Source: a bacterium (GTDB lineage Bacteria > UBP4 > UBA4092 > JAOAEQ01). From it: 64,000 nt of DNA. The position numbers and the translations under genes are program-made. Where the stretch lies: the NCBI GenBank assembly GCA_026416715.1, contig JAOAEQ010000008.1, positions 59,338 through 123,337 on the forward strand, read 5' to 3'. The notes beneath the pieces were generated by a model that did not search any database, was not told the DNA's origin, and saw only the letters and a list, made by a program, of their open reading frames with translations. Positions 6,963-62,360 of the stretch are shown one piece after another (the first letter of the stretch is position 1; every line of letters begins with the position of its first letter).

Positions 6963-7074
6963 ATATTCGATATGCGGATTTACCTTTATTATGGTATACT
7001 TTTGAGCAATAAAATGAATAGATTTTGTATCATAAATCGACAATAGGACGCAACTATTTCAAAATGATCATGAA

Positions 7075-7124
7075 GGAAACAAGCTTCCTAAAGGCAAAGG
7101 GCAAGCAAGCTTGCGCAGTCCGCA
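7075..7124. repeat. AAGCTT-core palindromes
   Basis: Two short palindromes, ggaaacaagcttcc (7075-7088) and gcaagcaagcttgc (7101-7114), the second followed by gcagtcc. They match the unit seen at 50414-50530 and 61401-61523, whose consensus is a short inverted repeat around AGCTTGCT flanked by TGGAnTGCG. The in-frame TTG at 7111 lies inside this repeat and is therefore a poor start for the next gene. Confidence 0.65.
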
Positions 7125-7131
7125 TTTTTCT

Positions 7132-9150
7132 ATGCAAAAAGAAACAAAAATAATAATTCTTTTAATGGCAATAGCGTTTTCTCTATCGTTTATCGTCTAT
7201 TGGAAAACATTAGCGCCAACGGTTAGTTTCGGCGATAGTGGAGATTTCATTTCCGCAGCGTATGTGCTCGGGATTTGCCATCCGCCGGGATATCCGCTCT
7301 ATTTGCTTAGTGCAAAACTATTCAGCTGGTTGCCGATAGGAGCCAATATCGCATTTCGAATAAATCTCTTGAGTGCATTTTGTGCAGGACTCGCCGTGAG
7401 TCTGCTTTATCTATTAATCCTTCGTGTCCAACAATGGTTTTATCCAAACGATGAACTACTTCGTGAAAATCGAAACATCGAGATTCCAGAATGGATAAAA
7501 CATAGTATTGCCATTCTCGGTGCATTATCCTTCGCTTTTACTTCCAGTTTCTGGTCGCAAGCGGTTATCGCAGAAGTGCATACGCTCAACGCCGTTTTTA
7601 CGCTCGGATTAATCCTAACCATTTTTGCTTTCGTTAAATTTGAAGAACTGCGGTATCTTTATACCGCAGCGTTACTCTGGGGATTAGCATTCGGCGTGCA
7701 TCAAACGTCAGTGTTGTATCTACCAATCATTCTCTTATTTTTCTGGAGTAAAGGTGTTCTGAAAAAAGTGCTCGAAATGAAAGTTTTGGTATTCCTGTTC
7801 GCCTTTGCCTTTCTTGGCTGGGCGGTACATCTTTATTTACCGCTGGTTGCGGTTCGTAATCCGGTTCGGAATTGGGATAATCCACAGACCTGGAAAGACT
7901 TCTACCTATTAATTTCGCGCGCGGATTATCATAAATTCCGCTGGGCGCGGTCGCTGCCAGTAGCGTGGAGTCAAATCAGTGCGGCTGCGTTCACTTTAAT
8001 CAGCCAATTTACGATTTTCTTTTTCTGGCTCGGGATCATCGGATTATGGCGAATGCTTAAAACCGATTGGAAAACTACCGGATTCATTTTGTTGCTCGCG
8101 TTAACCATTTGGGGTTTTTTCGCTGCCGTGACTAATTTTCCGATGGAATATAATATCTATATCAAAACGCGAGAAGCGTTTTTTATTCCGGCGTATCTGC
8201 TGTTTACAATCTGGTTAGCGCTCGGATTGAGATGGATTACAATCAATTGCCGAGCACTGGCATTACATCGGAGCCGTTCAATCGTTATCCTCGTAGGAGT
8301 GGTTATTCCCTTGACGATATTATTCGCTCATTATCACGAAGAAGATAAATCCGATTATTATTTCGCGGAAGATTTAGGACAAGCGATTCTTGATACCATG
8401 CTACCGAATGCGGTTTATTTTGCGGAAGATGACCCATTTATCTTTCCAGTACAATATCTTCAAATCGTTGAATCGAAACGACCGGACGTAACGATAATTC
8501 CGCGGAGTACGATGTATAAATGGTGGTTTTACGACCAGTTTAAAAAGAATAATCCGAATCAATTACGGATACCCGAATTTGAACCGGATAACGTTAAGTT
8601 AATGGAGGAATATCTCGATAAAAAGATGAATGAATTTATTGACCTCAATCTTGAACGCGTGCCCATTTACTTCTTATTTTCGCCGAAACCGAATTTGAAT
8701 CAGAAATATACGATTATTCGAACCGGATTACTCTATCAGGTAGTAACGACTGTGCCGATAGAAGTAGCGGAGTTAGGCGAATTGAAGTATCGTCCACCGT
8801 TGGTAACATATCGATATCGAGGGAAACCGGAAGATGGATTATCCGATGATGATTGGACGCAGTTTGCAGTTCTACAATTCTGTAATTACCATATTCGACA
8901 AGGGGATTATTTTGCGGTACGGAAAGAATTTCAGAAAGCGGTAGACGAATATTTTCAGGCAACGAATGTTAAACCAAACAGTGCGGAGTCATATTTTCGG
9001 CTCGGTCTGCTCTATGAATTTTTAGAAGATTACAACCGGGCGAAACAAGCGTTTGAGAATGTATTACTCTTGCAGCCGGACTTCCCGGAGGTTAAGCAAA
9101 AACTTGACCGTTTGAACAAATCTGCACAACCACTAACTCCTACCAGCTAA
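7132..9150 (+). CDS. DUF2723 membrane protein with C-terminal TPR (glycosyltransferase-like)
   Basis: About 672 residues from the ATG at 7132. The N-terminal half has around ten membrane helices and the DUF2723 signature: TLAPTVSFGDSGDF followed by GICHPPGYPLY. DUF2723 proteins resemble GT-C protein O-mannosyltransferases, in which acidic residues in the first periplasmic loop are catalytic. The C-terminus has TPR-like helices (ESYFRLGLLYEFLEDYNRAKQAF). A role in adding sugars to exported proteins is inferred from family. It converges on the next gene with only 24 bp between stops. Confidence 0.85.
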   Translation: MQKETKIIILLMAIAFSLSFIVYWKTLAPTVSFGDSGDFISAAYVLGICHPPGYPLYLLSAKLFSWLPIGANIAFRINLLSAFCAGLAVSLLYLLILRVQQWFYPNDELLRENRNIEIPEWIKHSIAILGALSFAFTSSFWSQAVIAEVHTLNAVFTLGLILTIFAFVKFEELRYLYTAALLWGLAFGVHQTSVLYLPIILLFFWSKGVLKKVLEMKVLVFLFAFAFLGWAVHLYLPLVAVRNPVRNWDNPQTWKDFYLLISRADYHKFRWARSLPVAWSQISAAAFTLISQFTIFFFWLGIIGLWRMLKTDWKTTGFILLLALTIWGFFAAVTNFPMEYNIYIKTREAFFIPAYLLFTIWLALGLRWITINCRALALHRSRSIVILVGVVIPLTILFAHYHEEDKSDYYFAEDLGQAILDTMLPNAVYFAEDDPFIFPVQYLQIVESKRPDVTIIPRSTMYKWWFYDQFKKNNPNQLRIPEFEPDNVKLMEEYLDKKMNEFIDLNLERVPIYFLFSPKPNLNQKYTIIRTGLLYQVVTTVPIEVAELGELKYRPPLVTYRYRGKPEDGLSDDDWTQFAVLQFCNYHIRQGDYFAVRKEFQKAVDEYFQATNVKPNSAESYFRLGLLYEFLEDYNRAKQAFENVLLLQPDFPEVKQKLDRLNKSAQPLTPTS

Positions 9151-12251: not shown

Positions 12252-13652
12252 TTATGGAGATGTAATTCCGTATTTTTCGAGTTTATCATACAGTCCTTTT
12301 CGACTTACTCCAAGTAGTTTCGCAGCTTCAGTTCGATTTCCCGACGTTGTCGCTAATGCCTGAAGTATTAGTCGCTTTTCAAGTTCTGCAACTAATCGGT
12401 CAACTTTCTCTTGCATTGGAAGCTGACTTAATAATAGCTCTTCTGAAAAGAGTGGTCGTTCCGGAAAGGTTATGGTACCTAATGGGAGTGAATCAATATC
12501 AATAACCTCATTTTGCGCTAGAACCACGGCACGCTGAATCACATTTTCGAATTCGCGAATATTCCCAGTCCATTCACGTTCCATCAGTATTTTCATTACA
12601 GATGCCGAAACATGTTTAACCTTTTTATTAAATTTCTGATTATAAATATTGAGAAAATGTTCTAAGAGTAAGGGAATATCTTCTTTTCGCTCGCGGAGAG
12701 GCGGCAGATAGAGCGGAACGACATTAATTCGATAGAATAAATCTTCTCGGAACGTGTTATTTTTTACCGCGGTAACCAAATCTTTATTGGTAGCTGCGAT
12801 AAATCGCAGGTCAACTTTAATTGTTTTCGTGCCGCCAACTCGCTCGAACTCCCGTTCTTGCAACACGCGTAGAACTTTTGCTTGTGTGGTTAAACTCATA
12901 TCGCCGATTTCATCGAGAAATAAGGTGCCACCGTTTGCGAGTTCAAATTTTCCAATCCGTTGTTGGTATGCGCCGGTAAACGCGCCTTTTTCGTGACCGA
13001 AAAGTTCGCTTTCCAGCAAACCTTCTGGTATCGCAACGCAATTCATCCGAATAAACGGTTTTTCGCTTCGTTTACTCCGTTTATGGATGGCTTCAGCAAC
13101 CAGCTCTTTTCCGGTACCACTTTCTCCATAAATGACTACGGTTACATCTGATTCTGCGATCTGCTCGATTTGACGATAGATATCTCGCATAACCTGACTG
13201 TTTCCTACGATATTTTCAAAGGTAAGCGTTTCCCATTTTTTTTCCAGTAAGTTTTTTAGCTCCCGCTGGAGCCGAATTTTCTCTAATGCTCGACGAACTA
13301 CAATTCGAATTTCGCCTAGATCGAACGGTTTGTTGAAATAATCATAAGCGCCGAGTCGGATTGCTTCCAGCGCTAAATCCCGAGTGCCAAATGCGGTTAC
13401 CATAATCACAGTTAATTCCGGATCCTGTTCCCGAAGCTGTCGTAAGGTTTCAATTCCATCTAATCGCGGCATTTTCATATCCAAAATAACCAGGTCGAAT
13501 GCGCTCTCCCTTGTCTTATCCAACGCTTCAATACCATCAGCTGCAGTTACGACCTGATATCCTTCGCGAGTCATAACTTCCCGCAAGGTAAACCGCATAT
13601 CTTCATCATCATCGACCACTAAAATCTTTGGGTGAACTAATAAATTCGTCAT
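12252..13652 (-). CDS. sigma-54-dependent response regulator, NtrC/PilR family
   Basis: 466 residues with the classic three-part layout. Receiver domain: acidic pocket at 14-16, phospho-acceptor Asp58 in LVILDMKMP, Lys108 in NKPF. AAA+ domain: Walker A GESGTGKE at 176-183, GAFTGA at 223-228 (contacts sigma-54), Walker B LFLDEIGD. C-terminal Fis-type helix-turn-helix GNRTEAAKLLGVSRKGLYDKL. It is encoded 15 bp downstream of its kinase and directly upstream of the sigma-54-dependent prepilin gene, so PilR is the likely role; I leave the symbol empty because naming rests on context. Confidence 0.93.
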   Translation of the reverse strand: MTNLLVHPKILVVDDDEDMRFTLREVMTREGYQVVTAADGIEALDKTRESAFDLVILDMKMPRLDGIETLRQLREQDPELTVIMVTAFGTRDLALEAIRLGAYDYFNKPFDLGEIRIVVRRALEKIRLQRELKNLLEKKWETLTFENIVGNSQVMRDIYRQIEQIAESDVTVVIYGESGTGKELVAEAIHKRSKRSEKPFIRMNCVAIPEGLLESELFGHEKGAFTGAYQQRIGKFELANGGTLFLDEIGDMSLTTQAKVLRVLQEREFERVGGTKTIKVDLRFIAATNKDLVTAVKNNTFREDLFYRINVVPLYLPPLRERKEDIPLLLEHFLNIYNQKFNKKVKHVSASVMKILMEREWTGNIREFENVIQRAVVLAQNEVIDIDSLPLGTITFPERPLFSEELLLSQLPMQEKVDRLVAELEKRLILQALATTSGNRTEAAKLLGVSRKGLYDKLEKYGITSP

Positions 13653-13667
13653 AAATAAAGGTAAATT

Positions 13668-15194
13668 TCAACTGTTCAAATTTCCCTGATTTGTCGTTGT
13701 TTGGATAGTCTCATCAATTATCGGTAATCGGATGCGGAATATTGTACTCTCGCCACGAACCGATTCAACTTGTATGATACCACTATGCGCTGCAACTATC
13801 TGATGTGCAATTGATAATCCAAGACCGGTTCCATTTTTTTTCGTAGTATAAAACGGGTCGAAAATCCGTTCGTAGTCTTCCGGCGCAATCGTCGACCCAT
13901 AATTTTTTATTTCAAAAATAGCGAACCCGCGGTTCGGAACTGGATATTCGGGTGAACGAAAACCATATTGAGTCGAGATTTCAATCGTGCTATTTTCCGG
14001 GCTCGCTTCATAGGCATTAATAATCAGGTTCAAAAACGCTTGAATTAATTTTTCTTTTTCCATTTTAAATACGGGAATCGTCTCATCATATTTCTGGTTC
14101 ACCTGAATGTTTCGTTCTGATGCTGCTGATTCTTTCGCAATCGCAAGCGCTTCTTTAACCAGCATATTGAACTCACCGAATTCCATCCCTGCGGAACCTG
14201 CTTGACCGAAACTCAATAACTCTTCAACGATTTTATTCAATCGGTCGATTTCTTTAATGATTACTTTTGTATATTGCCGTTTCTGATCATCCGCAGGAAT
14301 ATCCTCTTGCAGCAATTGAGCTAATCCACGCATTGACCCGAGTGGGTTTCGGATTTCGTGTGCCAGCGCAGTTGCTAATGTGCCTATAGCTGCCAATCGG
14401 TCGGAACGATGCAATTGCTGTTGAATCAGTTTTTGTTTCGATAAATTCTTAAAGGTCAGAATAAGCCCGATGACCTGGTCGTTTTTATCTTTTAATGGGG
14501 AAGAGGTTAGTTCAATCGGGAGCCGTTTTTTATCCGTAGTGACCAAGTCTAACTCGATAGAAGAATACATTTTCTGTTCTTCTAATCCCGTGCGAATAAA
14601 AGCTAATAGCCGTTGGTTATCTGATACCATCGGGATAATCCGTTCAATTGGTTTGCCCATACAATCGGAGGCGGATATTCCCAATAGAGATTCTGCTGCT
14701 GCATTCACCATGGTTATCGTTCGGGATTTATCGAGCGTGACTACAGCACCAGCCATACTTTCAATGATATATTTATTGCGTTCGTAAACGAAATTTCGCA
14801 AATTGCTGACCATCCGATTGAAACTATTACCGAGCTGATCAAATTCAGTATGCGTATCAATATGGATAGTTCGAGATAAATCACCGGTCGCAAGTTTATC
14901 TACGGTTGAAGTGATCTGTTTAATCGGTTGCACAATGGTATAACCAAGAATGACCCCAGCGATCGCCGCAAATATTACGCAGAGCCATAACGCGGTGGTT
15001 AAATAATCCAATAAGGTATGAACAACATTCGCATCAGTAGACGCAGAAGAGAGCTTGATTTCAACAATTTTCAGAAAGACGATACCGGTCAGAAAGACCG
15101 TAACAATCACTAGCATCGGAATAGCTACCATTAACCGGATACGGAGCGCTGGCCGTGTTTTTTTCGGTTTGGTTTGATTTAATGATTGCGGCAT
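13668..15194 (-). CDS. membrane sensor histidine kinase, PilS-like
   Basis: 508 residues from ATG 15194. Order: two transmembrane helices (about 22-43 and 67-86) around a very short periplasmic loop, HAMP (87-140), PAS (about 140-250), HisKA with His279 in ALAHEIRNPLGSMRG, and an ATPase domain with LNLIINAYEAS and GTGLGLSIAHQ. The small external loop suggests it senses something in or at the membrane. It forms a pair with the response regulator 15 bp downstream. A GGAGGG lies rather far (about 17 nt) from the chosen start. Confidence 0.93.
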   Translation of the reverse strand: MPQSLNQTKPKKTRPALRIRLMVAIPMLVIVTVFLTGIVFLKIVEIKLSSASTDANVVHTLLDYLTTALWLCVIFAAIAGVILGYTIVQPIKQITSTVDKLATGDLSRTIHIDTHTEFDQLGNSFNRMVSNLRNFVYERNKYIIESMAGAVVTLDKSRTITMVNAAAESLLGISASDCMGKPIERIIPMVSDNQRLLAFIRTGLEEQKMYSSIELDLVTTDKKRLPIELTSSPLKDKNDQVIGLILTFKNLSKQKLIQQQLHRSDRLAAIGTLATALAHEIRNPLGSMRGLAQLLQEDIPADDQKRQYTKVIIKEIDRLNKIVEELLSFGQAGSAGMEFGEFNMLVKEALAIAKESAASERNIQVNQKYDETIPVFKMEKEKLIQAFLNLIINAYEASPENSTIEISTQYGFRSPEYPVPNRGFAIFEIKNYGSTIAPEDYERIFDPFYTTKKNGTGLGLSIAHQIVAAHSGIIQVESVRGESTIFRIRLPIIDETIQTTTNQGNLNS

Positions 15195-18980: not shown

Positions 18981-19904
18981 ATGCAAAGAATTGGCATTAT
19001 TGCTAATTTAAATAAACCACAGGCGAAACCGGTTGTCCGCCGGTTAATTGCGTATCTTGAAAAAAAGCAAAAAACGGTTTTTGTTGAAGAGCGATTGGGT
19101 GAATGTATTCATCGTCAACAAAATCGGGTTCCGTTGCAAGCGTTAGCAAAACACTCTGAGTTAATCATTGTTCTTGGAGGAGATGGGACACTACTGTATG
19201 CAGCCAGGAATCGCGCGCTTGGTTCTCGTCCGGTTCTTGGGATTAATCTCGGTTCTCTTGGTTTTCTAGCGAACGTTGCCGTTACTGAATTAGAACCGAC
19301 CTTAGAACTTGTTTTGCGCAAAAAGTATCAACTCCAACCACGGATGATGCTTACAGCCAAAATTGTACAAACCGAACCAGAAGTTCAGCAAATCAGCGCT
19401 AGGAAGAAAAAGATTTTGTCATCTGTTCATCCGAATACCTGTTTTTCAGCTCAATCTTTCCTGGCATTGAATGATATCGTCATCACGAAAGAAGCGCTTG
19501 CGCGAATTATAGAGTTGACCATATATATCAACGAGGAGTTTGTTGCTCGATATCAAGCTGATGGTGTGATTATTGCAACTCCGACCGGGACCACAGCACA
19601 TTCATTATCTGCCGGAGGACCGATTGTACATCCGAACCAACAAGCGATTGTGATTACTCCAATATGTCCCCATACATTAAGTAACCGACCGCTGATCATT
19701 TCTGCAAATGACGAGATTTCTATTGCAGTGCATACTCCGGAACAAGCGGTTTATTTAACGCTTGATGGACAAGAAGGAATTCCGCTTTTAGCGAAACAGT
19801 ATGTTCTCGTGAAGAAAGCAAAAGAATCAGTCAATTTGATTATGCCAGTGAATAAAAGTTATTTTGAAGTTTTACGTACCAAACTCCATTGGGGCGGTAG
19901 ATAA
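18981..19904 (+). CDS. nadK: NAD kinase
   Basis: 307 residues; phosphorylates NAD to NADP in the cytosol. Motifs: LGGDGTLLYAARN (GGDGT at 66-70), LGSLGFLA, LNDIVI, and the TPTGTTAHSLSAGGPIV stretch, followed by ITPICPHTLSNRPL. I chose ATG 18981 (MQRIGIIAN) because the fold starts there; a TTG at 18948 would add 11 residues without support. Confidence 0.95.
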   Translation: MQRIGIIANLNKPQAKPVVRRLIAYLEKKQKTVFVEERLGECIHRQQNRVPLQALAKHSELIIVLGGDGTLLYAARNRALGSRPVLGINLGSLGFLANVAVTELEPTLELVLRKKYQLQPRMMLTAKIVQTEPEVQQISARKKKILSSVHPNTCFSAQSFLALNDIVITKEALARIIELTIYINEEFVARYQADGVIIATPTGTTAHSLSAGGPIVHPNQQAIVITPICPHTLSNRPLIISANDEISIAVHTPEQAVYLTLDGQEGIPLLAKQYVLVKKAKESVNLIMPVNKSYFEVLRTKLHWGGR

Positions 19905-20078: not shown

Positions 20079-21782
20079 ATGAAGATAAGAACCAAACTAA
20101 GTATCGCCTTTGTAATCGTTAGCATCATCCCAATGGTTATCGCGGTTTATTTAGCAATTACCGTTAATATTCGTCTCTTGCGTACCGCAGTGTATAATCA
20201 ACTAACTTCTACTATTCCGTTTATTGAGCAGAGCAAAAAACGGTATTTAACGAGAACGGAATCAGCGGCACGGCTGCTAGCATCGAATCCACAGGTGATT
20301 AAGGCGATTCGAAATAGAGATAAATTGATGCTAGAACGTGAATTTAAGCAGGTACTAGAACGTATCGGAGTTCATGAAGTGGTTTATTTAAATCCAGCGC
20401 AATTACAATCGGATTTTTTTCCGAAAGGAAATAAAATCCAGCAGGTTAGTAACCCTGTTTGGCAAGGGTATCTACCTCCAGCAATTGAACCTCGTCGTGG
20501 GCTGATGATGGTGACCGTATACAAAATTGAGTATAACGGAAAACTCCTTGGTGGAGTTCGGGTTGGGTATCAATTTGAAAAGAATATTGCTGAAGGTATC
20601 ATGGCAACGAGTGGAGTAAATGCAGCAGTTTTCCCGATAGATAGTGCTGCATTTAAGAAAATCGCTTCAACCCAACTATTGAATCGACTGGTTCACCAAG
20701 GTCTTTCGTATTATGCAACAGAATTCCTAATTTCTGACATTCAATACCAAGCATTGTTTATCCCGTTGAAAAGTTCTCGCGGCGAAACGAACGCAGTGGT
20801 TTTTCTTGGATTACCCCAACAGCCGATTGATAAATTATGGAATAAATATCGGAATATGTTCTATTTTGTTACGATAGTTTCCGGTGGAATTTTTGCAATT
20901 ATTATTGCATGGTTTATGGCACGTGGATTTTCTAAACCGATTCGGGAACTTGCTGGAGGTGCCGAACAAATTGCTGCAGGAAATTTTGAACAAAGAATTC
21001 CAATTCGTTCACGCGATGAACTCGGTGAATTAGCCAGTACATTTAATCATATGGCACAAAAACTATATGAACATCGCCTGATTGAAGAGCAACTCCGATT
21101 GAAAGATAAACTGGCAGCGCTCGGCCAGCTTTCCGCAGGGTTAGCGCACGAGATTCGAAATCCGTTAACGATTATCAAAAATGCAGCTGAATTAATTCAA
21201 CGAAAATTTGATCCGCAAACATCGGAATATAAACAAATCCAATATTATATTCTTGATGAGGCTAATCGAGTAAACTTATTGATTACGGATTTTTTAACTT
21301 TTGCAAAACCACGTCCTCCAAATATGGTACAATGTAACGTGGAAACAATTATTGACCGAACACTCACATTAGCGCGGAGTCAGTTGGTTAAACAAGCGTA
21401 TCAAATCGAATGGCACAATCAGACTAGTGCCGAAGATTATCTTTCAGTTGATTTGCAACAAATCCAGCAAGTGTTTCTGAATCTGATTTTGAACGCATGT
21501 CAAGCGATGCCTAGCGGTGGGAAATTAACTATAACTGCATTTCGTGCGAATGTTACCGAAGTCGGCGTATCATTTTCAGACCAAGGCGTTGGAATACCGC
21601 ATGCAAATCAATCAAAGATATTCGACCCGTTTTTTACGACCAAAGAGGAAGGTACTGGATTAGGACTTGCAATTGCACATCAGATTATTGAAACGCATGG
21701 CGGCAGAATCGAGGTAAGTTCTGAACCGAATAGAGGCACGACGTTTACGGTTTATTTGCCATTGGTTAGGCGTGAGAGTTGA
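20079..21782 (+). CDS. membrane sensor histidine kinase with large periplasmic domain
   Basis: 567 residues. One transmembrane helix near 8-28, a periplasmic sensor region of about 230 residues (probably Cache-like, with VGYQFEKNI late in it), a second helix at about 261-281, HAMP to about 335, HisKA with His357 in GLAHEIRNPLTIIKNAAELI, and an ATPase domain with NLILNACQAM and GTGLGLAIAHQI. It pairs with the activator encoded 54 bp downstream. The stimulus is unknown. Confidence 0.93.
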   Translation: MKIRTKLSIAFVIVSIIPMVIAVYLAITVNIRLLRTAVYNQLTSTIPFIEQSKKRYLTRTESAARLLASNPQVIKAIRNRDKLMLEREFKQVLERIGVHEVVYLNPAQLQSDFFPKGNKIQQVSNPVWQGYLPPAIEPRRGLMMVTVYKIEYNGKLLGGVRVGYQFEKNIAEGIMATSGVNAAVFPIDSAAFKKIASTQLLNRLVHQGLSYYATEFLISDIQYQALFIPLKSSRGETNAVVFLGLPQQPIDKLWNKYRNMFYFVTIVSGGIFAIIIAWFMARGFSKPIRELAGGAEQIAAGNFEQRIPIRSRDELGELASTFNHMAQKLYEHRLIEEQLRLKDKLAALGQLSAGLAHEIRNPLTIIKNAAELIQRKFDPQTSEYKQIQYYILDEANRVNLLITDFLTFAKPRPPNMVQCNVETIIDRTLTLARSQLVKQAYQIEWHNQTSAEDYLSVDLQQIQQVFLNLILNACQAMPSGGKLTITAFRANVTEVGVSFSDQGVGIPHANQSKIFDPFFTTKEEGTGLGLAIAHQIIETHGGRIEVSSEPNRGTTFTVYLPLVRRES

Positions 21783-21836: not shown

Positions 21837-23255
21837 ATGTTTACGATTTTGATTATTGATGATGAAATTCGACTTTGCGAAGTTCTGCAAATGGCTTTAG
21901 AACAAAAAGGATACGAAGTTAAGATTGCCCACAACGCAGAACAAGCACTTGTGGTATTAAAACAGACCACTGTAGATTTAGTCGTATCGGATATTCGCAT
22001 GCCAGGAATGAATGGTTTAGATTTATTGAAAACGATTAAAGAGATTGATGTAACTATTCCCGTGATTTTGATGACAGCATTTGCCACGGTAGAATCTGCA
22101 ATTACCGCTTTGCGTGAAGGGGCATTCGATTATTTACTTAAACCATTTGATAAACTCGATACTGTTGAGTTAACTGTAGCGAAAGCAATTCAATGGCGGC
22201 GGCTGCTTATTGAGAATCAATATTTACGGCAGGAAATTAACCAGCAGCATCCGTTTAAACAAATTATCGGAACGAGTCCGGCAATGCAGCAGGTATTTGA
22301 GCTTATCCGCCGGGTTGCTCCGACGTCGAGTACCGTTTTAATTACCGGCGAAAGTGGGACCGGGAAGGAACTAGTAGCTCGAGCTATTCATGAATCAAGT
22401 CCACGTGCCGGAATGCCAATGATAAAAGTGAATTGCGTTGCGATACCAGATACGTTGTTGGAAAGTGAACTATTCGGTCATATACGCGGTGCGTTTACCG
22501 ATGCCATCTCAACTCGTCCTGGCAAATTCGAACTTGCGGATAAAAGCACCATTTTTCTCGATGAGATAGGCGATATGAGTTTAGCATTGCAATCGAAATT
22601 ATTACGCGTTCTGCAGGAACGAGAGTTTGAACCCGTAGGAGGAACTATGCCGAAAAAGGTTGATGTGCGAGTTATTGCCGCAACCAATCGTCCGCTGCGA
22701 GAATTGGTTAATCGGGGAACGTTTCGTGAAGATTTATATTTTCGTTTAAATATTGTTCCAATTCATATTCCACCGTTACGTGAACGACGGGAAGATATAC
22801 CGTTACTAGCGGAATATTTTCTACGGAAATTCTGTGAAAAAACAGGGAAAAAAATCAGTCGAATTTCGCCGGAAGTAATCAAATTGCTAAAGTTCCATTC
22901 ATTTCCGGGAAATGTTCGTGAATTAGAGAATTTAATCGAGCGCGCTGTGGTTTTATGTCAGAAGGAACAGTTAGAACCAGCGGATTTTTACCTCGGTGCG
23001 GAAGAAATGCCGGGTCGCAAAATTGCTTCGGCAGAAGTTTTTCCATCGCCGGAACAAGATATCGGAATCCAAATAACAAATTATCAGGAAGCCAAGCGGA
23101 AGGTTCTGGCGTCGTTCGAACGGCAATTTTTTACCGCAGCGTTACGCGCTTGCCATGGAAACATATCACGAGCAGCAGAGTCGGTTGGGATGCATCGAAA
23201 AAATTTTTATGAAAAATTAAACCGGTATAAAATTAACCCGGAAGAATTTCAGTGA
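21837..23255 (+). CDS. sigma-54-type response regulator with GAFTDA loop
   Basis: 472 residues: receiver (Asp52 in VVSDIRMPG, Lys102 in LKPFD), AAA+ domain with Walker A GESGTGKE (171-178) and Walker B STIFLDEIGD, and a Fis-type helix-turn-helix (GNISRAAESVGMHRKNFYEKL). The sigma-54-contacting loop reads GAFTDA at 218-223 instead of GAFTGA. Such variants exist in the family, so function is not excluded. It follows its kinase. I found no convincing -24/-12 promoter near it; targets are unknown. Confidence 0.92.
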   Translation: MFTILIIDDEIRLCEVLQMALEQKGYEVKIAHNAEQALVVLKQTTVDLVVSDIRMPGMNGLDLLKTIKEIDVTIPVILMTAFATVESAITALREGAFDYLLKPFDKLDTVELTVAKAIQWRRLLIENQYLRQEINQQHPFKQIIGTSPAMQQVFELIRRVAPTSSTVLITGESGTGKELVARAIHESSPRAGMPMIKVNCVAIPDTLLESELFGHIRGAFTDAISTRPGKFELADKSTIFLDEIGDMSLALQSKLLRVLQEREFEPVGGTMPKKVDVRVIAATNRPLRELVNRGTFREDLYFRLNIVPIHIPPLRERREDIPLLAEYFLRKFCEKTGKKISRISPEVIKLLKFHSFPGNVRELENLIERAVVLCQKEQLEPADFYLGAEEMPGRKIASAEVFPSPEQDIGIQITNYQEAKRKVLASFERQFFTAALRACHGNISRAAESVGMHRKNFYEKLNRYKINPEEFQ

Positions 23256-40185: not shown

Positions 40186-40650
40186 ATGGAATCTAAGAAG
40201 TTTATTGCAGATGCTATGCTTGGTCGGTTAGCTCGCTGGTTACGTATCCTCGGATATGATACGGTATATCGCAAGCATACCAGCGATGCGGTTATTGTGG
40301 CGCAAGCGATTCGAGAACAACGAATTATCTTAACCCGGGATCGGCATTTTACGAAAATGAAATCAGCGAAAAATCATTTCTTAATTTCAAGCACACGGTT
40401 AGCCGACCAGTTTCGAGAAGTAGTTACCGCATTTCAATTAAACACGAATCAATATATTTTCACCCGATGTGCGGAATGTAATACTCCGTTAGTTCCAGTT
40501 AATAAAACTGAAATCATCCATCGTTTGCCGCTCTATGTTGCCAAAACGCAGGATAAATTCAGCCGTTGTCCGAGCTGCAACCGCCTCTATTGGGCAGGAA
40601 CACATTTAAATCTGATGCGAAAAAAAATAGATACGATGTTACATGGATAA
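40186..40650 (+). CDS. Mut7-C RNase domain protein
   Basis: 154 residues from ATG 40186. The PIN-like Mut7-C fold shows FIADAMLGRLARWLRILGYDT with Asp9, a DAVIVAQA helix and IILTRDRHF with Asp52; a zinc ribbon follows with CxxC at 95/98 and CxxC at 128/131. Family members are predicted ribonucleases; the target is unknown. Its stop overlaps the next gene by 8 bp, implying coupled translation, although the functions seem unrelated. Confidence 0.88.
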   Translation: MESKKFIADAMLGRLARWLRILGYDTVYRKHTSDAVIVAQAIREQRIILTRDRHFTKMKSAKNHFLISSTRLADQFREVVTAFQLNTNQYIFTRCAECNTPLVPVNKTEIIHRLPLYVAKTQDKFSRCPSCNRLYWAGTHLNLMRKKIDTMLHG

Positions 40651-48491: not shown

Positions 48492-48650
48492 TAAAAAAAT
48501 TTTTACTCTTGCAACTCTCTAACCTTTACATCGTCACATCTATGGCAGTAGCTATCCAATGATGAAGTTCATTTTGTAAAAATTCGTATCGGGACGATAA
48601 TTCAAGTTGTTCATCTTTCTGTATAGATTTGACTTCAGTTCGATACCGAA

Positions 48651-48687
48651 GTGTCTACGAACGAGATATCATCTCGTTCGTAGACAC
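48651..48687. other. perfect 17-bp-arm hairpin between convergent genes
   Basis: gtgtctacgaacgagat (48651-48667), a 3-nt loop, and the exact complement to 48687. It lies between two convergent genes, where a bidirectional stop signal would be useful, but neither strand has a T-run after the stem. It could block read-through or mark a mobile hairpin element. Confidence 0.6.
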
Positions 48688-48725
48688 TCCGCTTGTAATC
48701 CCAGCATAATTCGGTAACAATTTTG

Positions 48726-50276: not shown

Positions 50277-50413
50277 AATTGAGATTATACTGTAGCATAG
50301 AATGGAAATGATTCGAAAGAAAAAGCGGTGCATAGAAATAAAACTCAAGGCGGTAATCCGTTCAATTCGTTTGCATGAACCAAATGACAAAATTTGCAAT
50401 TTGATTGTTTACT

Positions 50414-50530
50414 CTGGATTGCGCAAGCTTACTTGCGCTTTCAATGGTTGAAGCTTGCTTCAACCATAATAACATTTTCCGAAGCAAGCTTCGGAACATC
50501 AAAACGGTAGCAAGCTACCGCATTCCAAAG
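50414..50530. repeat. cluster of four AAGCTT-core palindromes (composite repeat, copy A)
   Basis: In order: gcgcaagcttacttgcgc, ggttgaagcttgcttcaacc, ttccgaagcaagcttcggaa (50477-50496) and cggtagcaagctaccg (50505-50520), with ctggatt at the left and cattccaaag at the right as mirror-image ends. Positions 50477-50530, reverse-complemented, match 61402-61455 with two differences in 54. It fills the gap between the GH5-like and DUF748 genes. Confidence 0.8.
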
Positions 50531-50531
50531 T

Positions 50532-53500
50532 TTACTGCAATTTAAATTCTACTCGAGAATTACTTAATTTCTCTTTTTTCTCCGGTTCCAACTGTTTCGG
50601 TTCGGTTAAAAATATCCGTTCGGGTTTAACTTTATTCGTTGCAATAATATATTGTTGGACTGATTTTGCTCGGTTAGCCGCAAGTAGTTTCAAATCATCA
50701 TCGGTAATAATAATATTCTGCCGGATAAGTTGTTCCATTTCCGGTACCGGCAAAGTTTTGGTTAATCCGATAATATTTTTTTCTTTCGGAAACTTTTCTT
50801 TTTTATACACGATAGTGAGATATCGTTCGTATTCTTTAGGGTCAATAACCACCTCGTCAACCGGTCGGTCAGGTTCGCCTTTTTTAATCAACTCCTGCAA
50901 CTTTAGCGATTTCAATTTTCGGGAGAACATTAATTCCCGCAACGCTTCCCGGTCTTGATTAACATCAACATATCCGGTAATCTCAAGCTGTAATGCTGGC
51001 CGTTTAACCAGTGCATCAACCAATTTATCTAGCTTTTGAATATTCGCTTCGGTAATCTGATAATGAGCTGGCGCAAACTCTAGATACGAAAATTCTTCCG
51101 CATTTCCCCCCAGAATCGCTCCGAGTAAACTGAATGGCGAAGTGAGCGCTTTCGTAAAAATATTTATAATAATTTTTAGAATAATCGTTCCTATACGAAA
51201 CTTCGGATCATCAAGATTGCCGGACACCGGAATATCAAGATGGATTTCACCATTTAAATCTTTCAGCAGCGCTACCCCTAGTTTAACCGGTAACTTCAGC
51301 GCGTCCGGACTATCTACTTTATTCCCGAAATCGAATTGGTCGAGAAAAACCGTATTTTTCGAATCGAGTTTCCGTTTGTCAATTAAACAGGATATATCGA
51401 GAAATAATTTCCCTTTTTCAATTGTATATCCAACATACTTACTGGAAAATGGAGTTAATGCATTCATATCGAAATTTTTCATCGCCAGTTTTAAATCGAT
51501 ATAGAGTTCCTCGCGTAACGGATTGATTTTACCGATGATTTGAATGGGTGCGGTATTATCAATTCTGCCGGTTAACATGATATCTCCGGCTGTGGTGGAT
51601 TCAGAAGTCAATCCGATAATTTGGCAGGTTATATCACTAAATTGCGTTGTGTATGCGGGAGAGATAGATTTATCAACGAAATTTATTTTTCCCTGATTTA
51701 AAGTAATCCGGTCGATTTTAATCAGTTTGCTAGTCGGTGGTTCTGCCGGTTTAGTAGTGCTAACCGTAACAATTTGTGTCGTGTCGTTCGAAACGAAAAT
51801 ATCCGATAAATTAATAGTACTATCCGCATTAATCACCACATTCGTATAAACATCAGTTAATCCGATGTCGCGAATGTGAACGGTAAACGGGTCAGAAGCG
51901 AACTCGATTCCATTAACTTCAAAAGAATTCCATTTTAAAAAATCTTCTCCTGTTAACTTTTCTTTAGAAACGAATTCAGCAAGTTGTGCTTGACCGGTAT
52001 AGGTTATCACCGGCGTTCCGTTCTGATTAGTGCGATACGTTATTGCGCCTGTGATAGATGCATATCCGCTAGTGATTAGGATTTTTATTCTATCTTCAAT
52101 ATAGGGCTGCAATAAAAACACCTCGAGTTTCTGCAACGCTAAATCCGATTGCAGCATGACCGGAGTTAAGGTTAACCATCCGGAAGTATTAAAACTCCCT
52201 TTTTTATCGAATTGGCACGATAAATTTAACCGCGCTCTTCCATCACTACTTACATTTGAGAGATTGGCGATATTAAGTTTCAGGTCAGTTAAATTAATTT
52301 CTGCCGCTCGTGCGAGCGTTTGGTCAATCCAGTTGATAGTATATTTATCAAGATTGATTCGTTCGATTTTCGCTCTCCATTGCCGTTCAAGGTTGGTGGG
52401 TTGCGATGGAACCGGTATCGTAGGTTCAGGATTCGTGGTTTGAAATAGTGAATCGAAAGAAAATCGACCGGAGGGATATCGCTCAACCACTAATTTCCCT
52501 TTAGAACTCGCTATTTCTTTAGCGAGTATAGTTTTATTCAGCACATCGACCGCAATATCTTTTGCAGTGAAATTTGGGATAATGACGAAATCTGGTTGTC
52601 CGATATCTTTTGTTAGTTTCAAATTGCTGATGGTAATCGTGACCGCAGAAAATTGTTGTATTGGTTTCGTCGGCTCCTGCGTAACATTATAGTTTCCAGC
52701 GACTTGACATGTTCCATCTTTTACTTGAAACAAAATTTCGGTTTGATAATACGGGGTATATTTTTTTACCGGAATTCTATTGAACGCAAACGTTCCCTGT
52801 GATGCGAACGGTTCAATGATGAGGGTGCCAGCAGCCGTAACTTCTTCTTTTTCTTTCGTAGTTAGAGAACATAGATATCTAGCTGAACTTGACGAGGCAG
52901 TACTAATATTTTCTGCAGTTAAGTCGAACGATTCAATAACGGTCTGGAACGGATTTGCTGGTTTAAAATCTTGAAACGCAATTCTGGCTTGCTCTATTCG
53001 AAACGAGTCGATATTAATCTGAGCCGAGCCCGATTCGCTCTTCTTTTCAGATTTCGGTTTTAATACTTCCAAATTATAATTCCCATTTCTATTTCGGATA
53101 ACATTAACTGTCGCTAAGGAAACCGTGAATTCATTCAGATGCCATTGATTCCGGAACACATCGCCGGTGTTAATATCAACTCGAATTAATGGGAAAATCA
53201 GCATTGGATTGCTTTTCAAATCCTGGATTTCTAGGTTTTGCAGGGTAATCAACCCGCGGACAATTAATGAGGGTGAATCCTTGGTGGTATTGATAAACGA
53301 AAAACTGGTGCTGAAATTCGCATAGCCGGAAGCGAGTTTATACTCCATTTTTATCGGGATATACGCGAGATAATACGGAATATCGATATTCTTGAAATTA
53401 AACGTAAACTCGGTTTCTCGCGAACTCGAAAATGGTTTGGTTTTCCCAGCTGATGTAACCAGCGCATTGTTAATGATTGCGGAAAATGACGGTTGGACGA

Positions 53501-59200: not shown

Positions 59201-59653
59201 TTAATGTACTACGATTTTATCATATCCAAGGGTAGTAGCTAAACTAGATTTGCCATTCAGTGGAAGTTCGAGTGTCGCTTCGATACAACCGTTTGGTAAT
59301 TCGCGAATTTCACGAATTCGAAAACCGCGAAGAAACGCTTTAACTTTCGTTCGGCTAACCTGCCCTTTGCTTTCCTTAATTACTTTTCCGACTACCTTTG
59401 CTAAATTCCGTTGCGCAACTACAATTGCAGCCCGCCGTGCCATTAATTTCGCTTGCGCTGAACTAACGGAAAATGTCGGCGGTTTTCCGATTCCTTTAGC
59501 GACGATAACGTTCTGGTCAACCCTGATTTCATCGCAAGAACGAATAGTAAGTACTTTTTCAACTTTCGATATCGGTTGCGCTATTGCAAAACCAAATTCA
59601 ATAATGAACCCTAATAGAAGAATCGTGATAAATGCTGAAAAAGTAATCTTCAT
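59201..59653 (-). CDS. exported LPP20-like repeat protein 1
   Basis: About 150 residues from ATG 59653. A signal peptide (FSAFITILLLGFIIEFGFAIA) is followed by one domain with SSAQAKLMARRAAIVVAQRNLA, VKAFLRGFRIREIREL and a C-terminal beta-strand (CIEATLEL). It matches the repeats of the two upstream LPP20-like genes. An alternative start at 59680 falls inside a hairpin element, which supports the ATG used here. Last gene of the cluster; function unknown. Confidence 0.78.
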   Translation of the reverse strand: MKITFSAFITILLLGFIIEFGFAIAQPISKVEKVLTIRSCDEIRVDQNVIVAKGIGKPPTFSVSSAQAKLMARRAAIVVAQRNLAKVVGKVIKESKGQVSRTKVKAFLRGFRIREIRELPNGCIEATLELPLNGKSSLATTLGYDKIVVH

Positions 59654-60844: not shown

Positions 60845-60907
60845 AAGGGTACCCTTCAACAATTTTACATTACTACTTGCTCATTTTTAAAGTTATATTG
60901 AATTTGA

Positions 60908-60960
60908 AGGAGCAAAGTCCGAAGTTTACCCCGATAATTCGGGGTTCGGACTTTGCTCCT
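60908..60960. repeat. nested hairpin, GCAAAGTCCGA family
   Basis: Outer stem aggagcaaagtccga (60908-60922) with its exact complement (60946-60960), and a second stem ccccga/tcgggg (60929-60944) inside. The outer stem text is shared with 1356-1382. It separates two genes of the LPP20-like cluster. Confidence 0.75.
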
Positions 60961-60969
60961 TTCATTGAT

Positions 60970-61383
60970 TTAATATCCTTTACATGCAGCGCGAATATCC
61001 GCTAGCCGCACCTCAACCACAACTTCGAATGTTTTATCGGGCAACTCGCGAGCGGAAACAACCCGTGCGCCGCGAATAACCGCATCAACACGAGTTCGAA
61101 TCCTATCATCGCGCGTGATGAAATCCTGGACAGTCGTTTCGCCTTCTATCCGAACGCCTTTAATCCGTTCCGCAAGATTCCGATACGCATCCGCTTGTGC
61201 TGCCCGTTGCGCAAGTAACCGTGCTTGCGCTGGGGTTCCACCTGGTCGTGGTGGCGGCGGCGCACCGTAGCCGGTTGCACGAATTACTGGCGGTCCCGGT
61301 GGCGGTCCTGATGGCGTAGTCGCACAGCTAACCAAAATCATTAAAAAACAAATAAGAACGAATGGAAATAAAACTTTCTTCAT
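60970..61383 (-). CDS. LPP20-like lipoprotein
   Basis: 137 residues from ATG 61383, chosen because GGGAGGTG lies just upstream. The lipobox LMILVSC gives lipidation at the Cys, then a Pro/Gly-rich linker (GYGAPPPPRPGG) and one LPP20-like domain: ARLLAQRAAQADAYRNLAERI, DDRIRTRVDAVIRGARVV and FEVVVEVRL. The Pro-rich linker also occurs in the middle of the upstream protein. Probably sits in the outer membrane. Function unknown. Confidence 0.83.
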   Translation of the reverse strand: MKKVLFPFVLICFLMILVSCATTPSGPPPGPPVIRATGYGAPPPPRPGGTPAQARLLAQRAAQADAYRNLAERIKGVRIEGETTVQDFITRDDRIRTRVDAVIRGARVVSARELPDKTFEVVVEVRLADIRAACKGY

Positions 61384-61400
61384 TGTGTTCACCTCCCAGA

Positions 61401-61523
61401 ACTTTGGATTGCGGTAGCTTGCTACCGCTTTGATGTTCCGAAGCTTGCTTCGGAATAAGTTTTATCACTAGGAAGCTGGCTAATACCAAAGCGAAAACAA
61501 GCTTTCGCACTCCACATCTCAAA
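61401..61523. repeat. cluster of AAGCTT-core palindromes (composite repeat, copy B)
   Basis: gcggtagcttgctaccgc (61411-61428), ttccgaagcttgcttcggaa (61436-61455) and gcgaaaacaagctttcgc (61491-61508), starting at ctttggatt and ending gcactccacatctcaaag. Positions 61402-61455 match the reverse complement of 50477-50530 at 52 of 54 bases. It lies between the tandem LPP20 gene and the lipoprotein gene. Confidence 0.8.
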
Positions 61524-61589: not shown

Positions 61590-62360
61590 TCAACGGTATA
61601 TTATCGGAACCAATCCGTCCAGTGATAACGCTACATCAACTTCGCAAGTGCCGTCGGAGAGATAGCGGACTCCGATAACTTTTGCACCGCGAATGAACGC
61701 ATCTACATTCGTTCGAATCGTATCGTCTTTCGTTATAAAATTCTCGACGGTCGTTTCCGCATCAATTCGCACACCTTTAACCTGTTCCGCAAGCAGCCGG
61801 TAGGCATCAACCTGCGCCGCGCGTTTCGCCATAAGTTTCTTCTGTGCGGCTGACCCTGATTCCGGTGCAACACCGGTTCCAGTAACTTTAATCACCCGAG
61901 TTGCCCATTCCGGAGTCGGTGGGACTTTTTCAGTCGGCGGTGGAGTCGTTGCGACTGGTTCCGGTGGCGGTGGTGCGCCGTAACCGTAAGCAATTATATC
62001 GCCATACTGCCGAGCAAGCCGACGACCGAGAATTTTCTCTAATTCCGCTTGTTTCATCATAACCGTAACTTCACACGTACCATCGTCTTCATACCGAACG
62101 TTGGTAACTTCGATGCCTTTAATGAATGTATCCAGCCGGGTACGAATCGTATCATTCTCAGCAACGAAATCTTTAACGAACGTGCCGGATGTTAATCGGA
62201 ATCCCATAACCTGCTCGGAGAGATTCCGATACGCATCCGCTTGCGCCGCGCGTTTCGCCATTAATTTCGCTTGCGCATCAGACATCGTCTGCCCGATAAC
62301 TACTGGGACGAAAACGAGAACTAGAATAAGTGTTGTTAATAGGAGAACATTTTTCTTCAT
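61590..62360 (-). CDS. exported protein with two LPP20-like repeats
   Basis: 256 residues. A signal peptide (VLLLTTLILVLVFVPVVIG) is followed by two copies of the same domain of about 85 residues: copy 1 from AQAKLMAKRAAQADAYRNL to GTCEVTVMM, and copy 2 from AQKKLMAKRAAQVDAYRLL to GTCEVDVAL. A Pro-rich linker (GYGAPPPPEP) joins them. Both keep IRTNVDAFIRG or a close variant. GGAGG stands 11 nt before the ATG. First gene of the cluster; it looks like an internal duplication of the repeat seen singly downstream. Confidence 0.83.
   Translation of the reverse strand: MKKNVLLLTTLILVLVFVPVVIGQTMSDAQAKLMAKRAAQADAYRNLSEQVMGFRLTSGTFVKDFVAENDTIRTRLDTFIKGIEVTNVRYEDDGTCEVTVMMKQAELEKILGRRLARQYGDIIAYGYGAPPPPEPVATTPPPTEKVPPTPEWATRVIKVTGTGVAPESGSAAQKKLMAKRAAQVDAYRLLAEQVKGVRIDAETTVENFITKDDTIRTNVDAFIRGAKVIGVRYLSDGTCEVDVALSLDGLVPIIYR

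Follow-up and report, generated by a model that had tools for sequence, protein, structure and literature searches.

REP/RAYT biology has so far been drawn largely from GTAG-tagged systems, mostly in Proteobacteria. The GTAG-tagged REP, BIME and REPIN elements of E. coli, Pseudomonas and Stenotrophomonas (PMC3733652, PMC3116915, PMC8266576) are short tagged palindromes, multicopy and intergenic; they also occur in tail-to-tail pairs and flank the gene of a Y1 HUH RAYT. The characterised TnpA-REP binds single-stranded REP hairpins and cuts through a tyrosine, and a 5′ tetranucleotide is used in recognition or in the choice of cleavage site (PMC8266576). CGTC-tagged repeats have been reported without a dedicated transposase (PMC3733652). 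In the TIR/TIRYT systems (PMC3733652; subclass 2.1) a Y1 gene is flanked by small-family repeats with the motif GGGGWSAS, and most of the proteins have a C-terminal HTH (PMC3733652). TnpA-Y1 subclass 2.8 has the motifs NHYH, W[YH] and YIHYNP and a length of about 199 aa; GT[AG]G REPs are reported to flank it, and within the sample of that study it came from Cyanobacteria only (PMC6006769).

Here we describe a repeat from a 64,000-nucleotide stretch of bacterial contig JAOAEQ010000008.1 (the window). It has all the features of the GTAG-tagged REPs listed above, the flanked RAYT gene being found in other genomes. It differs from them in its tag, which is TTTGGA-N-T and not GT[AG]G at the 5′ side of the hairpin foot, in a second hairpin that is often part of the unit, in a taxonomic range that centres on Acidobacteria, Verrucomicrobia, Hydrogenedentota, Planctomycetota and others, and in a host without detected RAYT. 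With the CGTC-tagged REPs it shares tagged palindromes that have no transposase beside them in the host; the tag is again different, and in other genomes the unit has a specific RAYT clade. The tag test thus fails for both superfamilies, and the unit is neither a GTAG nor a CGTC REP. The system resembles TIR/TIRYT in its repeat-flanked Y1 gene, but neither GGGGWSAS nor the HTH was seen. Compared by description, the clade RAYT has the same NHYH, a similar length and a similar tyrosine motif to subclass 2.8, which differs in its REPs and its phylum. The system works like REP/RAYT with a tag other than GTAG and CGTC. A literature search, confined to main texts and mostly to open-access papers, returned no description of a TTTGGA tag; the matches to the unit sequence string were chance or primer matches, and none of the papers listed was on bacterial repeats.

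The initial annotation had likened the repeats to REP elements moved by a TnpA-REP enzyme. The genomic copies, the compensated arms and the clade-specific RAYT linkage elsewhere support that reading. We consider it highly probable that the repeats are non-autonomous REPs in REPIN/BIME-like inverted pairs, most likely spread by one Y1 HUH RAYT/TnpA-REP clade and now probably an ageing orphan population.

Results

The repeat is a unit of ~58 nt, made up of the tag TTTGGA-N-T, hairpin 1 with a GCG/CGC base and a variable middle, CTTT with a short spacer and, usually, hairpin 2 centred around GAAGCTTGCTTC (Table 1). The window has six copies of AGCTTGCT where 0.81 are expected, a count reached in 0/100 shuffles. 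Direct comparison of 50477-50530 with the reverse complement of 61402-61455 reproduced the annotated identity of 52 of 54 bases, with mismatches at 50504 and 50523; a longer alignment (50471-50532 against 61400-61461) covers 62 nt at 94% identity. Both sites are intergenic, as annotated, each lying between co-directional minus-strand ORFs. The further palindromes with the same core that had been reported near them are real and correspond to units A and D, the tail-to-tail partners. A fifth unit, absent from the initial annotation, contains AGCTTGCT at 7104. Two long near-perfect hairpins without the tag are also present in the window (48647-48691 and 60907-60961), the former between convergent ORFs. 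A sub-threshold Rfam plastid match at 60900-60964 was set aside, since another palindrome had probably been hit there by chance.

Table 1 Units found in the window and copies of a composite repeat on other contigs; E values are for covariance model R1
Feature	Position	Strand	Tag	Hairpin 1	Hairpin 2	E value	Remarks
Unit A	50411..50468	+	CTCTGGATT	50421-50438	50444-50467	1.0e-13	Also inverted repeat I8
Unit B	50474..50531	-	TTTGGAATG	50504-50521	50477-50496	9.5e-16	Tail-to-tail with A; 52/54 identical to reverse-complemented unit C
Unit C	61401..61458	+	TTTGGATTG	61411-61428	61436-61455	1.4e-16	Best copy in the genome
Unit D	61461..61518	-			Partly degenerate	4.0e-12	Tail-to-tail with C
Fifth unit, solitary	7069..7126 (G000:C8:66406-66463)	-				5.9e-12	Upstream of ORF 7111..9150
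179-bp composite (L031)	G000:C35 about 19500-19680						
179-bp composite (L035)	G000:C18 about 40360-40540						

Covariance model R1, built from twelve units, found 23 units in the genome at E up to 1 and 19 below 0.001. The 2.96-Mb genome therefore holds 19-23 copies, which is low for a REP family. Twelve units form six pairs, every one of them (6/6) tail-to-tail and 102-131 bp apart. Nearly all units lie between ORFs, the nearest gene end often being only tens of bases away, and none is near a contig break. Tag and arms vary between the units, most copies being divergent; the tag base N in the 16 scored units is C in 7, A in 4, T in 3 and G in 2. A genome of the same class (G001), far too distant from the host for a comparison of empty sites, had no unit. 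Two contigs share, at 80% identity, a 179-bp composite in which several different palindromes are combined (GTCCCTGACGGGACTA, AGCCATGAATGGCT and one sub-type of the unit).

The arms of the hairpins change together, as the initial annotation had proposed. Double-sided changes occur in 8 of 15 pairs and are compensated; they number 25 cells against 7.2 in shuffles, and the covariation score of the host units was reached in 0/500 shuffles. The repeats have the features of REP/REPIN elements in the broad sense, being short, multicopy, mainly extragenic palindromes in inverted pairs of preferred orientation, with a conserved hairpin and compensated arms.

One unit (G000:C3:69317-69373; L025 1501-1557) sits inside a membrane-protein gene (683 aa), where it contributes about 19 residues in frame. 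At this site three distant homologs, including a paralog from the same genome, have a gap of 17-22 residues. The arrangement may be a sign of movement, an indirect one given the low identity of the homologs (about 23-32%).

An exact pattern, with base N and the middle of the arms left free, was run on a species-level genome collection. By record label the matches listed come from, among others, Acidobacteria, Verrucomicrobia, Hydrogenedentota, Planctomycetota, Deltaproteobacteria, Nitrospinae, Nitrospiraceae, Armatimonadetes, Chlamydiae and Calditrichota. Both the 5′ tag and CGCTTT keep their sequence from phylum to phylum. Among the matches listed, 139 of 146 distinct cross-phylum units are fully compensated at two pattern-free arm positions; in 143/146 of these units N is G, as against 2/16 in the host genome. 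A second hairpin (stem ≥6) was found on the tail side of 64 of 186 units; the head side gave 17 and shuffled tails 7. Neighbouring units in other genomes are tail-to-tail in 47 cases and head-to-head in 6.

The link between unit and RAYT is drawn through other genomes because the host genome has no detected RAYT. In G035, a genome with units, a small Y1 protein is encoded directly beside them; this RAYT gene (L210/L053, G035:C178) has an in-frame TAG, and units in its 5′ region are partly translated. A second unit-adjacent Y1 protein, P0001, comes from an Opitutia contig. It matched the NCBIfam model for REP-associated tyrosine transposases (NF047646) with 107 bits at a cut-off of 80; P0002 scored 69 bits, under that cut-off. 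Against PDB sequences, the only match to profile A2, derived from P0001, was the E. coli TnpA-REP (4er8, E=5.8e-8). The HUH motif NHYH and the catalytic tyrosine are invariant in seven clade members, with a tyrosine motif Y[VT][HN][QN]N[PA]. With an HUH motif, a single catalytic tyrosine and a match to the curated model, the P0001 clade belongs to RAYT/TnpA-REP.

This clade is the REP-associated transposase to which the unit is tied. In a discovery set of 25 genomes searched with P0001, counting strong or partial members, units were near 13/13 P0001-type RAYT loci (11/11 distinct places), while about 2/53 other Y1 loci had any candidate unit (Fisher p 1e-10). Profile searches later added six genomes, again with a unit at 6/6 RAYT sites. 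The REPtron arrangement, a RAYT flanked by its element, is therefore seen at 17/17 distinct places elsewhere and not in the host genome. Across 386 genomes, R2 units occur in 4 of 7 with a core-clade RAYT and in 9 of the 379 others (p=2.6e-5). When 61 Y1 proteins were placed in a tree, a branch with support 96/86, present in 100% of bootstrap trees, had on one side the 13 RAYTs that are flanked by the element. The sister clade consists of three RAYT relatives (L242, L261 and L243) flanked by different hairpins; by eye, L242 and L261 have the tag TTGGAGT in their flanks, and L243 a related but different tag. The hairpins in these three flanks are tandem or inverted, and their stems are unrelated to those of the unit.

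By analogy with the characterised enzyme, the clade RAYT would bind the single-stranded hairpin of the unit (TTTGGAGT-hairpin; TTTGGAGTGCG-hairpin DNA), with hairpin 1 as the putative binding site. The TTTGGA-N-T tag 5′ of the hairpin foot may be read as a guide, the RAYT tyrosine would cut near the hairpin, and the folded single strand would then be moved by the enzyme. We also considered N as the guide base that selects cleavage and abandoned this reading, since N differs from one RAYT-bearing genome to another and CGCTTT is mostly unchanged.

Discussion

It is very improbable that the units are transcription terminators or hairpins for mRNA stability, maintained by selection at the ends of genes and of no mobile origin. 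The hairpins are conserved and nearly all intergenic, often close to a gene end (unit B has a 0-nt gap to a 1178-aa ORF), as such a role would predict. A terminator has no need of a 5′ tag and CGCTTT that are conserved in sequence across phyla, nor would it be expected in inverted pairs that specifically flank one transposase clade. There is no consistent U-run after the hairpins, sequence inspection of units A-D found no T-run of the kind that marks a Rho-independent terminator, and Rfam gave no match at the units. A subtler question is what the compensated arms mean. They show that the hairpins have been kept or restored. The initial annotation went further and read selection for hairpin structure from them; the covariation stands, but by itself it leaves selection unproved because template-switch repair of quasi-palindromes could also yield it. 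The correction of quasi-palindromes is well established as a source of mutation, and within one genome the arms differ widely yet stay complementary. The units could in that case still be REP elements, their arm covariation stemming from palindrome-perfecting repair and not from selection for hairpin recognition. We regard this as somewhat unlikely: a small set of arm sequences recurs beside RAYTs in many phyla, which suggests inherited variants, and the invariant GCG/CGC base of the stem points to constraint. Both processes could act side by side.

The absence of a TnpA-REP enzyme from the window, reported in the initial annotation, was borne out and extends to the whole genome as far as detected. 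PF01797 alone proved unsuitable for detecting RAYTs, because the clade in question scores weakly on it (P0002 15.5 bits, below cut-off). Absence from the host was therefore re-tested with P0001, profile A2 and NF047646, and none of these, NF047646 at E up to 10 included, nor PF01797 detected a Y1/RAYT. The assembly consists of 64 contigs and is scored 100% complete; in an assembly of 64 contigs the absence is not final. A cognate RAYT could be present in the organism and lost from the assembly, with the population still active. RAYT genes are repeat-flanked, other assemblies have some fragments of them at the ends of contigs, and the two window units with 52/54 identity would fit recent activity. 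Two genomes of the same family as G035 (G202 and G336) likewise have many units and no detected RAYT, a pattern that leaves room for a missing assembly piece in the host as well. The completeness score, the lack of any match even at the most permissive threshold, the position of the host units away from contig breaks and the divergence of most copies make such a loss from the assembly improbable. As there is no detectable RAYT and the units have diverged, tag base N included, the host population is probably an ageing orphan, left after RAYT loss or after past mobilisation in trans.

Taken over all genomes, the evidence inclines us, by a modest degree, towards a distinct RAYT/REP system spread over many phyla. 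Its own guide tag, TTTGGA-N-T, would be co-inherited with one RAYT clade and a two-hairpin unit, the hairpins of the sister clade being entirely different and, for two or more of its members, paired with TTGGAGT; in the present host the population would have outlived its enzyme with hairpin pairing still maintained. If so, guide tag and hairpin are separately evolving recognition parts. A RAYT clade with another tag, ranging from Acidobacteria to Verrucomicrobia and Hydrogenedentota, would be a natural experiment on the co-evolution of transposase, guide and hairpin. The system would also account for a repeat to be expected in many environmental genomes. Populations of this kind, in the host and in other genomes without detected RAYT, make it possible to ask whether REP hairpins persist once the enzyme is gone, and therefore whether the hairpins serve the host.

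The window contains other repeats. Long inverted repeats of 71-75% identity (12786-12954 with 22520-22688, and 13780-13866 with 21617-21703) lie inside oppositely oriented ORFs and probably represent two paralogous gene pairs. A 54-nt repeat (59405-59458, 61177-61230 and 62223-62276) is common to neighbouring minus-strand ORFs, which apparently encode related small proteins.
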